A DNA stretch of 64,000 nt from an uncultured Mycoplasmataceae bacterium (GTDB lineage: Bacteria > Bacillota_I > Bacilli_A > Mycoplasmatales > Mycoplasmoidaceae), in NCBI GenBank assembly GCA_947041945.1, contig CAMREV010000004.1:1-64000 (forward strand), given 5' to 3'. How positions within the stretch are numbered: position 1 is the stretch's first letter; every line of letters begins with the position of its first letter. The notes under the pieces are model-generated. The model ran no database searches and had not been told where the DNA came from. It saw only the letters and a list, made by a program, of their open reading frames with translations. The position numbers and the translations under genes were made by a program. Shown piece by piece: positions 7,963 to 63,509 of the stretch.

Positions 7963-8265
7963 TTATTCTTTTTTTTCTTCTTCATCAAATACAATTTCAG
8001 TTCCAGGTAATAAAGTTACAATTGCAATTTTCTTAGCTTTTTTAACTCCTGGTTTCTTAGTTCCTGTTTTTGTCTTTTTTTCAACTTTGCTTACAATGTT
8101 TACTTTTTCACATTTAATTCCATAGATAGCTTGGAAAGCTTCTTCTACTAATTTTTTAGTTGCATTTTTATTTACAACAAAACAATATTTCTTTTTATCT
8201 AAAGAAGTCATTAAATATGTTTTTTCAGTATTATAAGGTTTGATTATTACTTCACTTAAATTCAT
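7963..8265 (-). CDS. rplW: 50S ribosomal protein L23
   Basis: L23 sits at the exit tunnel and docks SRP and trigger factor. The 100-residue protein has the IKPYNTEKTYLM start and the FVVNKNATKKLVEEAFQAIY segment typical of the family. Its ATG overlaps the rplD stop in a TAATG arrangement, and its ribosome-binding site (GGAGG) lies inside the end of rplD, so the two genes are probably translationally coupled. Confidence 0.95.
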   Translation of the reverse strand: MNLSEVIIKPYNTEKTYLMTSLDKKKYCFVVNKNATKKLVEEAFQAIYGIKCEKVNIVSKVEKKTKTGTKKPGVKKAKKIAIVTLLPGTEIVFDEEEKKE

Positions 8266-55312: not shown

Positions 55313-57103
55313 TTAAATTTCTTTCATAAAATCATATTCAAAAAGACAATCGCATATAATTTTAGTTCTATTTTTTACATTTTTTTCAGTTCAATTATCT
55401 TGATTTAAAAAACTTTCTTCCTTGAAAAATTCTTCTTCTATAATTTTATGATAAATATTATTTGTTTTTTTACCCTTAATAATTGAATTTGATTTTCCAT
55501 CATAATTGAAAACTTCCAAAATCATTTCTTTCTTTTTGGAGAATTTTTCATTTGAAATAGCTGTATTTAATTTGCTCTCTAATATAGTTGCATTACCAAT
55601 TTTATAAATCATATTTTTAAAATTATCTTCAGAACAATCTTTTTCTCATTTTTTTGAAATAATTGGGCAAATGTGCTCCAAGGTTGATGTTTTTCAATTA
55701 ATTTTTTTTTCATTTTTCAATGAAGTTTTGGAAAAGAAAAATTTTATATAATCTGTTTTTTTAAAATTAATATCTATAAGTCTATCAATAAAAACTTTTC
55801 TTTCATAATCCCCTAATGCATTTGCTATATATCCATTTATTTTTTGTTTAACTTTACTTATTTCTTTTGCTTCTTTTGTTTCTTTAGAAAGATCTACCAT
55901 TATAGATTCAAAAAAATTAGCTTGTTCATTATTTATTACCACTATAGAAATAAGCAATTCATGAATTTTTTGAATTATCAAATGCGGATTATCATTTCTA
56001 AAATTCTCATAGATATTTATGGCAATTGGTATATGTTGATAAAATCTTAATAGTTTTATTTCAGAGCTTAATATATCATGATTTTTAAATAGATCCAAAA
56101 AAGAATTCATATATTTTGTCATATCTTTGACTATTTCAATACTATCTTTTTTATTTTTCATTCATTCATTTTTACTGTCTTTTAATTCTGTTTTTTTAGT
56201 ATGCTTGTATCTAGAAAATAAGAAATGTTGTAAAAATTTGTCATAATCATTTTTATAAATTGAACCTTCACAATTCAAAACAGACAAGAAAATTTGTCAT
56301 TCATCATCAAATTCTCTCTCTTTTTTATTTTCCTTTGCTAATGAAAATATTTCGCTTTTTAGCAAATCTAAAATTGTTAAATTTTGACCTGTGGAATTTA
56401 TTGTAGAGAAAGTTGTAATAGCTTCATCAATATTGTCTAAGCAAAAAAGACCTATATTTATATATTTATCAAGAATGGCAAGAATGTCAATAATTTTTTG
56501 CTTAACTTCACTTATTTCTTTCGTCTCTTCCTTATTAACCAGTCATTGATGTATAAAACCATAATTTTTTAGAAAAATATTTTGATTTTTTAAAATATTT
56601 TTAGCATTGCATTCTTTTTCGGAATATTCAACCATTTCAGTAAATGAACGTCTCTCTCGTTTATTAGAATGATAAATTCTGAATTTATCATTTCCAGTGA
56701 ACAACATATAATTTATTTCCTTATTTATTTTTTCAAACTTATCATCTTCAATATTTCAATTATTAGACTTAATAATATTTCTCATTGCGAATAGCAATAT
56801 ATGAATTGTTGTTATTCTTTGTTGGCCATCCACGATGTCTATTGTCTTAGAATTTTTACTATCAAAGTAATAAAAAATATTTCCAAAATATATTGCTTTT
56901 GAACTGAATTTTGAATCAAGAATTTTATCAAACATTTCTAAAAAGTTGCTAATAGATTCTGAATTTCAAGAGTAGTCTCTTTGATACAAAGGAATATTTA
57001 TTGTAGAGTATGAATCAGTTTGAGGATTTTGTTTTAGTGTTTCTTTTTTTAAAAAATGCCCCATTGTTTCTAGTTGACTATTATCTTTTGTTATATTTAT
57101 CAA
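55313..57103 (-). CDS. DUF262-DUF1524 protein, GmrSD-like
   Basis: The 596-residue protein starts at TTG 57103, chosen because AAAAAGGAG lies 7 bp upstream and it gives the N-terminal residues before the first ATG (57064). It has the DUF262 motifs YQRDYSW (40-46) and DIVDGQQRITT (DGQQR 92-96), the ParB-like nucleotide-hydrolysing half, and a C-terminal DUF1524 HNH-type region with LEHICP (His477) and IGNATILESKLN (about 502). This fused form is known from GmrSD type IV restriction enzymes against glucosyl-HMC phages, and from other defence nucleases. The target here is unknown. Many Trp codons are TGA. Confidence 0.85.
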
Positions 57104-58406: not shown

Positions 58407-60185
58407 TTATATAGTTTTTACTAATCTACTCGGCTCTATTTCATGTTTACGACAAAAATCATATATATTTTCATTTGATTTTAACATTTCAATAAGAGAA
58501 TCACAATCGAAAATTATAATTTTCATTTTGGATTCAAATTGCTTATTTATACCCTCAAATGCAAAAACTAATCTGTCTTCTATTTTTGGAGCCACAATAA
58601 TAGAAATCGCATTTTTAATTTTATTATTTAATTTACTTTCAACCAAAAGATCATTAATTAGATGTTGTAAAGATGAATCAAATTCCATTTTAACTTGATT
58701 TTTTATTTGAGTTGTTGGTTCTATATTTATGAAATTAACTTGATTCTTTATCATGATATCTGCTTTTCCTCCGGGGGCAAATCTTACAGGGCAAAGATTC
58801 GAGTCCAGTTTTGTTCTGAAAGATTTTTTTATAATATCTTTCTCTTCTTTATCAATTTTAATAATTTCAATATTTTTTTTAGTTAAAAAAATCATTCCAA
58901 CTAAAAATTCAAAAAAAGTAGGATAATCCACCTTCCCTTTCATATGTGGATGATTTTTTATTATTTTATAAATTTTACTTTGATCAGGAAAAATTTTATT
59001 CTTTTCATAAGATTCTTTTATTTCTTCAAGTAATTTTATCAGTTGTTTTTTCTCATAATAGTTATCAAAAATATTTTTCTCTATATCACTTATTTTTTGA
59101 GGCAAAAAAACCAAGGAATCTATACCAAGAATTGATGATAATTCATTAACATCATAAAATTTTTCAGTTTCAAAATTTAATTTTCCTTGACTACCATTTA
59201 TTAAAATATTTTCTATAAAATCTTTATAAAAGGGATTTATAGAAAATTTCTCTGTTTTGTCTTCTTCTAAAACTTCATAAATAAAAATTTTGTCTAATGC
59301 TATAAGATGTGACTTTATTAAATGTTTATAAGAATCCCAAGATCCCTTGATTATTCTATCGAATACTCTTTTTTCAAAATCTACATACCCTTCATTTATT
59401 TTTTCAGTAACTCAATTTTCAAATTTTTTTTCTCTTATAAGTTTTTCCATTTTTGCATAAGAAAATGTTTCATTAAAAATTAGTGAATCAATTCCAACCG
59501 AAACCTTACCGTTTTTTTCATATATATTGATGATTAATGATATTATTTCTTCAATATTATTCTTTTCTTCCATTTTTCCTTCAACAAACAGATTGACCAA
59601 ATTATCATTCATTTTTTTTATTTCTGGATTTTTTGACCCGCTTTTTGGTACTAAAATATTTTTGATTGAAATTATATCTTTATTTTTTATACAGTTTCTT
59701 ATTCTTTCTTTATTTTCAATTGTTAATAGAATATCTCCGGTAATTTTTTCTTTATTATTTAAAAAATTAACTATATGATGAAAACAATTTTCTACTTTAT
59801 TTCCATTATTAAATTTTTGTTTTAATAATAATTGAAAAAATGAATAATCAATAGAAGTTAATCCCCAAAATTTATTTTCATATTCATCATTTTCTCAATT
59901 TTCTGAAACTTGATTTTTTTCTATTAAATATTTTTCTAATTCCCTATAGTATGTTGTTTTACCAATCCCTAAGTTATTAATTAAACTCATTTCACGTTTA
60001 ACATTTTCTTCAATTTTAAAACCAGTAAAAAATCTTGCTTCTTTTAAAAATTGAAAAATTTCGCTTTCACTTAATTTTTTCCCATTATTCTTAATAACAA
60101 AATCAACTAAAATAGTATAACTTTGTTTAATATTTGTTCTCTTGGTTTCTGATACACCAAATTTCACTAAATCATATTTAATCAT
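58407..60185 (-). CDS. AlwI-like type II restriction endonuclease
   Basis: The 592-residue protein is a single frame through several TGA codons. Near the C-terminus it has FAPGGKADIMI and FINIEPTTQ, with Asp476 and Glu489 placed like a PD-(D/E)x(K/T) nuclease core. The layout (long helical N-terminal part, then catalytic domain with GG-x-x-D-I) resembles the AlwI/MlyI/PleI family as I remember it, which cut beside asymmetric sites such as GGATC. The methyltransferase end overlaps its ATG by 8 bp, so they form one operon. Cleavage specificity cannot be read from sequence. Confidence 0.75.
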
Positions 60186-61749
60186 AAAAAAAGTTACTAA
60201 CTAATATTTCCTTATCTTTTTTATTTTTATCATTTTTTCTTTGATAATTTGAATTTTTATAATCAACACTATCAATGCTGATTATTTTTATTTTACCTTT
60301 ATTTTTTTTAATAAACTTATCTAAATAAATATTTATTTTATCTTTAGATTCGATAACATTCGAAAGAAATCAATAATAACCTTGATTTGTTAAGTCTTCT
60401 AAACAAGATATCAATTCTTTTTCTTTTTCTTCATTTCAAACATTGTTATAAGTGGCATTAGAAAGCAAATAAGGAGGATCAAAATAAAAAATAGTTTTTT
60501 CTTTTTCTAAAAGAGGAAGCGTTTCATCAATGAAAATTTTAAAATCTTGTGATTTAATTGTTATTTTTTTATCTTTAGTGTTATTAATAAAATTGATAAT
60601 TTTTGATTTATGATATTCATTTCATCAAAATTTTCCAACAGGTATGTTAAATTCTTCTTTATTATTGAATCTAATTTGTTGATTAAAACCAAAAAGTATC
60701 AAAACTAATAATTTTGGTATCTCTTTTGTTCTATTAAAATCATCACGCAATTTATTATATTGGACATCATATTTCTTTTTCTCTTTAGGCAAATTAAATT
60801 TTTTTATAATTTCTTCAATACTATTCAGTAAAATTTTCTTTTCTGTGTTGAATAGATGTTCCAAAATTCTAGATAATCAAATGTCATTGTCATTAAGATA
60901 TATTTTTTTTGGAGTTTTGTAATTTAATCCAACCAATCCTGTACCTGCAAAAGCATCAACAAAACAATCTATATTTTTTTTAGGAAATTCACGCATTAAT
61001 TCTTCAATCATTCTGTATTTATTACCCAAATGATTAAATGGTGCTCTGAAGTACATTGATTTTATTCTCTTTATTGATTGTTCATAATATTTTTTATCTA
61101 TTTCGCTACCAATATAAAATCTATTTAAAAGATTTGCAGAATAACTTATTTGACCAGAACCAGAAAAGGGATCAAAAACAACATCGCCTTCATTTGTGTG
61201 TGTCTTTATAATTTCTTCTATTAAATTTTCAGCTTTTTGTGTAGGATGTATTCTATTTTTTCCATTTGTTGGGCTAGCCTTATATTCTGGTCTTAAATAA
61301 GGTTTGTCTTCTGGCTTGTTAAAAGTTCATTTTTCTCCTGGTTTAGTTGCTCAAATTGCAAATTCAAAATCAGTTACATATCTTCTTTTTGTATTTCTTG
61401 GCATTGGTGCCGGTTTAATCCAACGAATTAAATCCTTAATTTCCAAACCTTGTTTTTCCAATTCTTTAGAAATATCACCCATATTTTTTCAATCATTAAA
61501 AATAATAATAGAACCACCAGGTTCCATTATATCAGTTATATTTTTTAATCATTTTAATTGATCAAAATTTTTATCTCAATCACCAAAATCTATACCCGCT
61601 CTGCCAATTGTTTTAAAATTATTTTTTCTAGAAATATTATAGGGAGGATCAGTCAAAATAAGATTTACTTTAAAATTATTCTTTTTAAGTTTTTTTATTA
61701 ATTTTAAACAATCCATATTATAAATGTTATTTAATAAAATTTTTTCCAT
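60178..61749 (-). CDS. fused DNA adenine methyltransferase, beta-class plus D12 (Dam-like) domains
   Basis: One 523-residue frame holds two full N6-adenine methyltransferases. Residues 1 to about 232 are beta-class (D21/DpnA-like): DPPYNI (34-39) comes first and the SAM motif DPFSGSGQ (FSGSG 195-199) last. Residues about 235-523 are alpha-class D12 (Dam/DpnM-like): FNHLGNKYRMI, SAM motif FVDAFAGTG (267-271), the DNA-contact stretch FNQQIRFNNKEEFNIPVGK (355-373) and DPPY (424-427). I found no TAA/TAG; Trp codons include TGA. It precedes the endonuclease and probably protects both strands of an asymmetric site, one domain for each. Confidence 0.9.
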
Positions 61750-62627: not shown

Positions 62628-63509
62628 TTATTTTGATGTTTTTCCTTGTATAGTAAATCATTCAGATAATAAAGTATTAGTACCATTTTTAAAAATGAAA
62701 CCCTTTTTTGCAGTTAGAACTATTTGATTACCCATACCAGGTACAATTTCTTCTGTTAAAGATACAGTTACATTTTCAAAATCACTTTGAGTAATATTAA
62801 ATAGTTTTTGAATAGTTGATAATGCAATTGGACTAGCACTAATTTCTACATATGGAATAAAAGAAGCTGCTTCTTCAAGAGTTTTTGCAGTTATTTCTAA
62901 TTGTTTAGATAAATTAAATATAGCAGAATCTAAAGTACCAGCACCACCCTCAAAAACAAAACCTTCATTTGCAGTTAGAACTATTTGATTAGTCGAACTA
63001 GCAGCTGCATTTTTGTAAGTAGCAGTTACATTTACAAAATCACTTTCAGCAATATCAAATACTTTTTGAACAGTTGTGAATGTAATTGGACTAACTAAAA
63101 CTTCTTCAGCAGAAATACCATCAGGAATAGCCTTTAGAGTTATTGGTAGTGTTGCATTAGATAAAGTAAATTCAACAGAATCTAAAGTATTAGTACCATC
63201 TTCAAAAACAAAACCTTCATTTGCAGTTAGAACTACTTGATTAGTTTGGTTAACCCCAACATTAGTATTTTTTAAAGTAGCCTTTACATTTACAAAATCA
63301 CTTTCAGCAATATCAAATAGTTTTTGAACAGTTGTGAATGTAATTGATTCAGCTTTAACTTCATGAACTGTAATAATACCAGGTGTAGCCTTTGCAGTTA
63401 TTTGTAATTTCACATCAGATGCTTGTGCACTACATGATGCTAAAAGAAATGCAGGTGTAGCTATCAAAGATATACCAATCACTAAATTTAAGAATATCCT
63501 CTTTTTCAT
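62628..63509 (-). CDS. P35-like surface lipoprotein with three internal repeats
   Basis: The 293-residue protein has a basic N-terminus, a hydrophobic signal and a lipobox ending Ala-Ser-Cys26, so it should be a membrane lipoprotein. The body has three repeats of about 80 residues, each with a TTVQKLFDIAESDFVNV-type helix and NQIVLTANEGFVFEDGTNTL-type strand pair (third copy TIQKLFNITQSDFENV, NQIVLTAKKGFIFKNG). This layout recalls the M. penetrans P35 family. It ends past a TGA-coded Trp. An extended -10 and GAGG ribosome-binding site are upstream; a near-copy gene lies beyond. Confidence 0.85.

Follow-up and report, generated by a model that had tools for sequence, protein, structure and literature searches.

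Two overlapping genes on the minus strand of the window (the whole stretch of DNA analysed, 64,000 nucleotides) encode a fused DNA adenine methyltransferase, M12 (M), and a putative restriction endonuclease, R. Their features are given below, with the evidence for each.

60178..61749, minus strand: M12, a fused DNA adenine methyltransferase of 523 aa; TGA=Trp (frame, Pfam, PDB matches, alignment)
61060..61728, minus strand: beta-class N6_N4_Mtase domain, residues 8-230 (Pfam PF01555; match to M1.HpyAVI, 5hek; signature alignment)
61639-61650, minus strand: DPPY of the beta domain (residues 34-37)
61255..61320, minus strand: residues 144-165, a disordered loop in the target-recognition domain (TRD) of the beta domain (pLDDT <50; site of an (AG)n tract in genomes G026 and G018, with no tract in the window copy)
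61153-61167, minus strand: FSGSG of the beta domain (residues 195-199)
60190..61050, minus strand: alpha-class D12 domain, residues 234-520 (Pfam PF02086; 1yfj match; alpha alignment)
60937-60951, minus strand: FAGTG of the alpha domain (residues 267-271)
60469-60480, minus strand: DPPY of the alpha domain (residues 424-427)
60178..60185, minus strand: 8-base M/R overlap ATGATTAA; R start codon within the M end, proposed translational coupling
58407..60185, minus strand: R, 592 aa with two TGA read as Trp; putative cognate restriction endonuclease, Type IIS-like
58662..58910, minus strand: R catalytic region E426 ... D476 ... E489-P-T491 ... E501 ... H508, invariant in 8 mycoplasma homologs

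The M12 frame runs for 523 codons, with 10 TGA and neither TAA nor TAG ahead of its stop. Seven of the ten TGA-encoded tryptophans (W58, W67, W87, W133, W141, W438 and W460) are invariant, and because these positions are tryptophan in all seven full-length homologs aligned, code 4 (TGA=Trp) is supported, as a sequence-only reading of this stretch had assumed. That reading had also described two domains of opposite motif order, DPPY then FSGSG in the first and FAGTG then DPPY in the second, with both catalytic sets intact. Both descriptions hold: the motif residues are present, and the central ones are invariant in both domains across the seven homologs. The two Pfam families that it had named were found far above their cut-offs, N6_N4_Mtase on residues 28-226 (E 3.6e-39) and MethyltransfD12 on residues 241-478 (E 2.4e-31). 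The best PDB match of the alpha domain is a T4-type Dam (1yfj, E 6.6e-26). The beta domain had been called DpnA-like, which we do not uphold; its closest match is Helicobacter pylori M1.HpyAVI (5hek, E 1.1e-64) and not pneumococcal DpnA, despite the PDB label 'DpnA'. Homology to M1.HpyAVI extends across residues 8-230, but that enzyme is stand-alone and partnered by an m5C methyltransferase.

An AlphaFold model of M12 (nine-sequence input, pLDDT 77) consists of two methyltransferase-like domains of alternating helices and strands, which meet around residues 230-240 with almost no linker. Three loops of the beta domain (40-54, 113-126 and 144-165) are of low confidence, and the last falls below pLDDT 50. 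In M1.HpyAVI the TRD comprises residues 133-166 and is disordered (PMC5173035). A promoter scan gave no excess of sites over shuffled sequences. M12 is a real, intact and probably functional enzyme.

Full-length fused homologs were found in six other genomes (G066, G052, G001, G114, G127 and G119) at 48-60% identity. Further fused copies are cut by the contig end in G050 and split by repeats in G026, G018 and G123. Unfused beta and alpha genes, overlapping or adjacent, occur in G137 (14-nt overlap), G296, G160, G159 and a Bacilli MAG (locus L021). The same beta domain is also found, in several mycoplasma genomes, on the C-terminus of an m5C methyltransferase, an arrangement of the M. hominis DCM3 type (L039:6177-7985, L041:675-2477, L042:5622-7418, L067:5602-7491 and L068:4768-6582). 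Like M12, the DCM3 type is a two-class, two-strand fusion built on this beta domain, but its partner domain is m5C and N-terminal. Could the fusion in the window be an artefact, two overlapping genes joined by read-through or in the assembly? The unfused genes of locus L038 overlap by 14 bases, so that a small indel could make or undo a fusion. Nonetheless, the identical direct fusion recurs in many independent genomes and is active in M. hominis (PMC12898733), and we consider an artefact extremely unlikely. A fusion by chance or by assembly was rejected because homologs with the same fused gene occur in other mycoplasma genomes.

On the methyltransferase tree 11 fused proteins make up the window lineage, a clade with support. 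The history of fusion on this tree involves two changes, but the hypothesis that every fusion goes back to one origin is not rejected (p 0.33). The G052 protein, 60% identical to M12, lies within this clade; a tree that moves it to the loci with MhoVII-type R is rejected (p 4e-5). We infer that G052 (locus L028; WP_081794293 / WP_027124015) is M. pirum, because its methyltransferase of 531 aa and endonuclease of 575 aa match the lengths given for that species (PMC12898733). A plasmid or phage origin was also rejected, as the plasmid collection contains no record that matches 80% of M12 at a single place; the only records to reach this coverage were two identical uncultured-phage ones, at 29% identity and in two pieces. 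One scan of viral_contigs gave just partial relatives, mostly of the beta domain.

Wherever the contig of a fused locus extends as far as R, M and R are direct neighbours and their order is the same. The 8-nt overlap also recurs in L027, L028, L029, L032, L033 and L036. The R catalytic residues, all except P490, are invariant also in three non-mycoplasma AlwI-type relatives. The first PDB match of the R family profile is the small subunit of R.BspD6I, at a marginal E of 0.049. The model of R has low confidence (pLDDT 45) and was used solely for fold ranking; with this weak model Foldseek returned nine matches at E <1e-3, all to Nt.BspD6I or its small subunit, followed by FokI (E 0.02). A profile-profile comparison linked R over its catalytic part (probability 99%) to the branch that holds the M. 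pirum R. The tree puts the window R in a separate branch of its own, with a best identity of 40% to its nearest homologs and about 25-32%, over short stretches only, to the MhoVII-like endonucleases. We place R in the AlwI/BspD6I superfamily because of the catalytic pattern, the PDB profile match, the fold ranking and the profile-profile link; judged from sequence and model, it is a divergent Type IIS-like endonuclease. The sequence-only reading had spoken of an AlwI-like nuclease. This stands in so far as R shares the E...D...E-x-T...E...H pattern of AlwI, N.BstNBI and Nt.BspD6I and finds this group in the fold search, but R is only a remote relative of AlwI: it scores 17.1 bits against Pfam RE_AlwI, below the gathering cut-off of 23.1, and its recognition part is unrelated in sequence. 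Close relatives of R gave no AlwI match, most being without a Pfam match worth the name, and PADLOC returned no family for R.

This architecture has a precedent, and the fusion is no novelty. It was reported in Metamycoplasma hominis in 2023 as DCM8/DAM3 (PMC10305163). In February 2026 the fused beta-alpha methyltransferase of MhoVII was cloned in E. coli, where its first domain (M1) gave GmATG and its second (M2) CmATC; R.MhoVII cleaves unmethylated sites only (PMC12898733). The window locus shares with MhoVII a single protein with the beta domain (YhdJ/M1) ahead of the alpha D12 domain (M2), an endonuclease gene directly downstream on the same strand, and a mycoplasma host. It differs in the divergent branch of its R and in having no (TA)n in the alpha TRD, a tract reported for M. 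hominis and not for all members. The M. pirum member has the methyltransferase and the 8-base overlap of the window lineage and its M placement is firm, whereas its R groups, not firmly (AU p 0.198), with the MhoVII-like endonucleases, outside which the window R lies. A clean exchange of the nuclease between M. pirum and the window lineage is therefore no more than a possibility. The window system belongs to the MhoVII kind but has a divergent nuclease; its fusion, domain order and division of strands are already published.

Two other systems invite comparison. In the DpnII system an alpha (DpnM) and a beta (DpnA) m6A methyltransferase likewise serve one nuclease, but they are encoded by two genes, read the palindrome GATC and accompany another nuclease family, where the window has one fused gene and an AlwI/BspD6I-type R. 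M.FokI also modifies both strands of an asymmetric site from one fused polypeptide, but its fusion is of two alpha domains.

For the recognition site, beta domains were aligned. Those partnered with an alpha methyltransferase, fused or not, carry FND[WY](K/R)N in 17 of 17 cases (FNDWKNMG in the window), in the segment that follows the second beta-strand region. The six m5C-partnered domains, fused to their partner or next to it, and M1.HpyAVI, which reads GAGG, all have FCSY(R/K/L)(F/Y)ISY here (FCSYRFISY in M1.HpyAVI). The two groups differ too at RRYV-xD where the residue is present, the m5C group having Q. This residue signature, which separates alpha-m6A-partnered from m5C-partnered beta domains in our alignment, is new here; it tracks clade membership and is not an independent test of specificity. 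The class of the partner fits the chemistry, because CATC, the complement of GATG, holds an adenine, and CCTC, the complement of GAGG, holds none and hence calls for an m5C partner. Since the beta signature and the alpha TRD core GFNxQIRFN..FNIPxGK are shared with MhoVII-like loci, the site in the window is predicted to be GATG/CATC. That each domain serves one strand of an asymmetric site, as had been proposed from the fusion, is well supported by analogy with MhoVII (PMC12898733). Site avoidance was discarded as a line of evidence on the motif: at an observed/expected ratio of 1.39, GATG/CATC is over-represented in the window, and the measure is uninformative.

The same two-strand enzyme might instead read a longer or different site, determined by the divergent R and the TRDs; GGATC (AlwI) and GCATC (SfaNI) are examples. 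The separate branch of R, at most 40% identical to its nearest homologs, is consistent with this, as is the unfused beta and alpha pair of L021, which adjoins a clear AlwI-family R (Pfam E 1e-35). A related methyltransferase of M. agalactiae and M. bovis recognizes GCATC (PMC9465063). Against these stand the 60% identity between the methyltransferases of the window and G052 and their common TRD cores, although the specificity of the M. pirum enzyme is itself only predicted. We regard a longer or different site, the main alternative, as possible but unlikely, and retain GATG/CATC as the prediction.

We therefore propose, from sequence and from analogy with MhoVII, that M and R very probably constitute a restriction-modification system that is Type IIS-like and of the MhoVII kind. 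The site would be short and asymmetric, its adenine being methylated on one strand by the beta domain (predicted GmATG) and on the complementary strand by the alpha domain of the same polypeptide (predicted CmATC). R would act as an AlwI/Nt.BspD6I-type PD-(D/E)xK endonuclease, cutting foreign DNA without these marks. After replication each daughter duplex is unmarked on one strand, and with a single protein the two activities would then be present in equal dose. R has no obvious ribosome-binding site in the window and starts within the end of M, and is probably made by re-initiation after M. The 8-base overlap would then probably couple translation of R to completion of M, such that no R is made without M. 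A frame-shifted M would lower R as well, which would make switching safe.

Such switching is suggested by the relatives. No simple repeat tract, neither (AG)n nor (TA)n, was found in the window copy of M12, which looks locked ON. Six relatives carry (AG)n inside the fused gene at three positions, two of them in target-recognition loops. Two have the tract in an N-terminal leader: L030, where it is in frame, and L031, where it is out of frame from upstream ATG codons. In L032, L033 and L036 it lies in the beta TRD and is out of frame in each; in L035 it lies in the alpha TRD and is in frame. Most tract-bearing relatives are draft assemblies, whose tract lengths may be wrong. The R proteins of L032 and L033 are 84% identical, and their fused genes are out of frame in two distinct ways, which is what slippage of the tracts should produce. 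Their tract is located at the disordered residues 144-165 of the window model and the disordered TRD of M1.HpyAVI, and in-frame Glu-Arg repeats should therefore be tolerated there. At least five changes of tract state are needed on the tree. In M. hominis the alpha TRD carries (TA)n instead, as does that of the MhoVII-like locus L059, with (TA)8. From these patterns, the (AG)n tracts of the relatives are probable ON/OFF switches.

The out-of-frame copies, together with the variable activity of MhoVII among isolates (11-76% of sites methylated; PMC12898733), could also indicate a system kept mainly for epigenetic regulation, with one domain or the nuclease inactive. The window locus, with both methyltransferase motif sets and the R catalytic residues intact and no repeat tract, speaks against this, and we judge it improbable. 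Within the restriction-modification reading that we prefer, we suggest only tentatively that the fused lineage comprises independently evolved contingency loci, in which dinucleotide tracts entered three places separately, namely the leader and the TRD loop of each domain. Slippage would switch the protection of both strands together, and perhaps restriction through the M/R overlap, and in-frame gain or loss of Glu-Arg in a recognition loop may tune specificity.

Repeats were also noted outside the fused genes. A (CT)n tract lies about 290 bases upstream of the fused methyltransferase start in L028 (about 8193-8211; L003:1181-1199), a possible transcriptional switch. In the window's own genome (G000), contigs C3 (86046-86099, L085) and C11 (21838-21877, L086) both terminate within an (AG)n tract that interrupts an apparently single m5C methyltransferase gene, with the N-terminal part on C3 and the part with motif PCQ on C11. 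This gene is probably phase-variable, and the tract is probably the reason for the contig break.

Further genes flank the system. A GmrSD (DUF262) protein is encoded at 55313-57103 (minus strand; PADLOC best match HEC-06/Orf5), and GmrSD-like genes are close to the fused methyltransferase also in L027, L030, L031 and L035, which suggests that this pairing of defence genes recurs. A deoxynucleoside kinase gene (PF01712; 57400-58065, plus strand) lies between the endonuclease and GmrSD genes, on the strand opposite to theirs. On the other side, paralogous lipoprotein genes with internal repeats stand in a row (62628-63509, minus strand, and L087:1793-6624 past the window) and share MKK(R/K)I(F/L)LNLV...LLASCSA; they possibly encode variable surface proteins. 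About 10 kb past the window end (G000 C4, L087:12379-17750), large ORFs resemble, by eye, a Type I restriction-modification system (HsdR-like, HsdM-like and a third partner).

With this locus, a recently reported restriction family of mycoplasmas extends to a lineage whose nuclease belongs to another branch. The analysis also yields a testable rule for the partners of the beta m6A domain: an alpha m6A partner if the opposite strand of the site has an adenine (GATG/CATC), and an m5C partner if it has none (GAGG/CCTC). New asymmetric-site enzymes are useful tools, and the family points to Type II systems that may switch on and off via AG repeats in their recognition loops.
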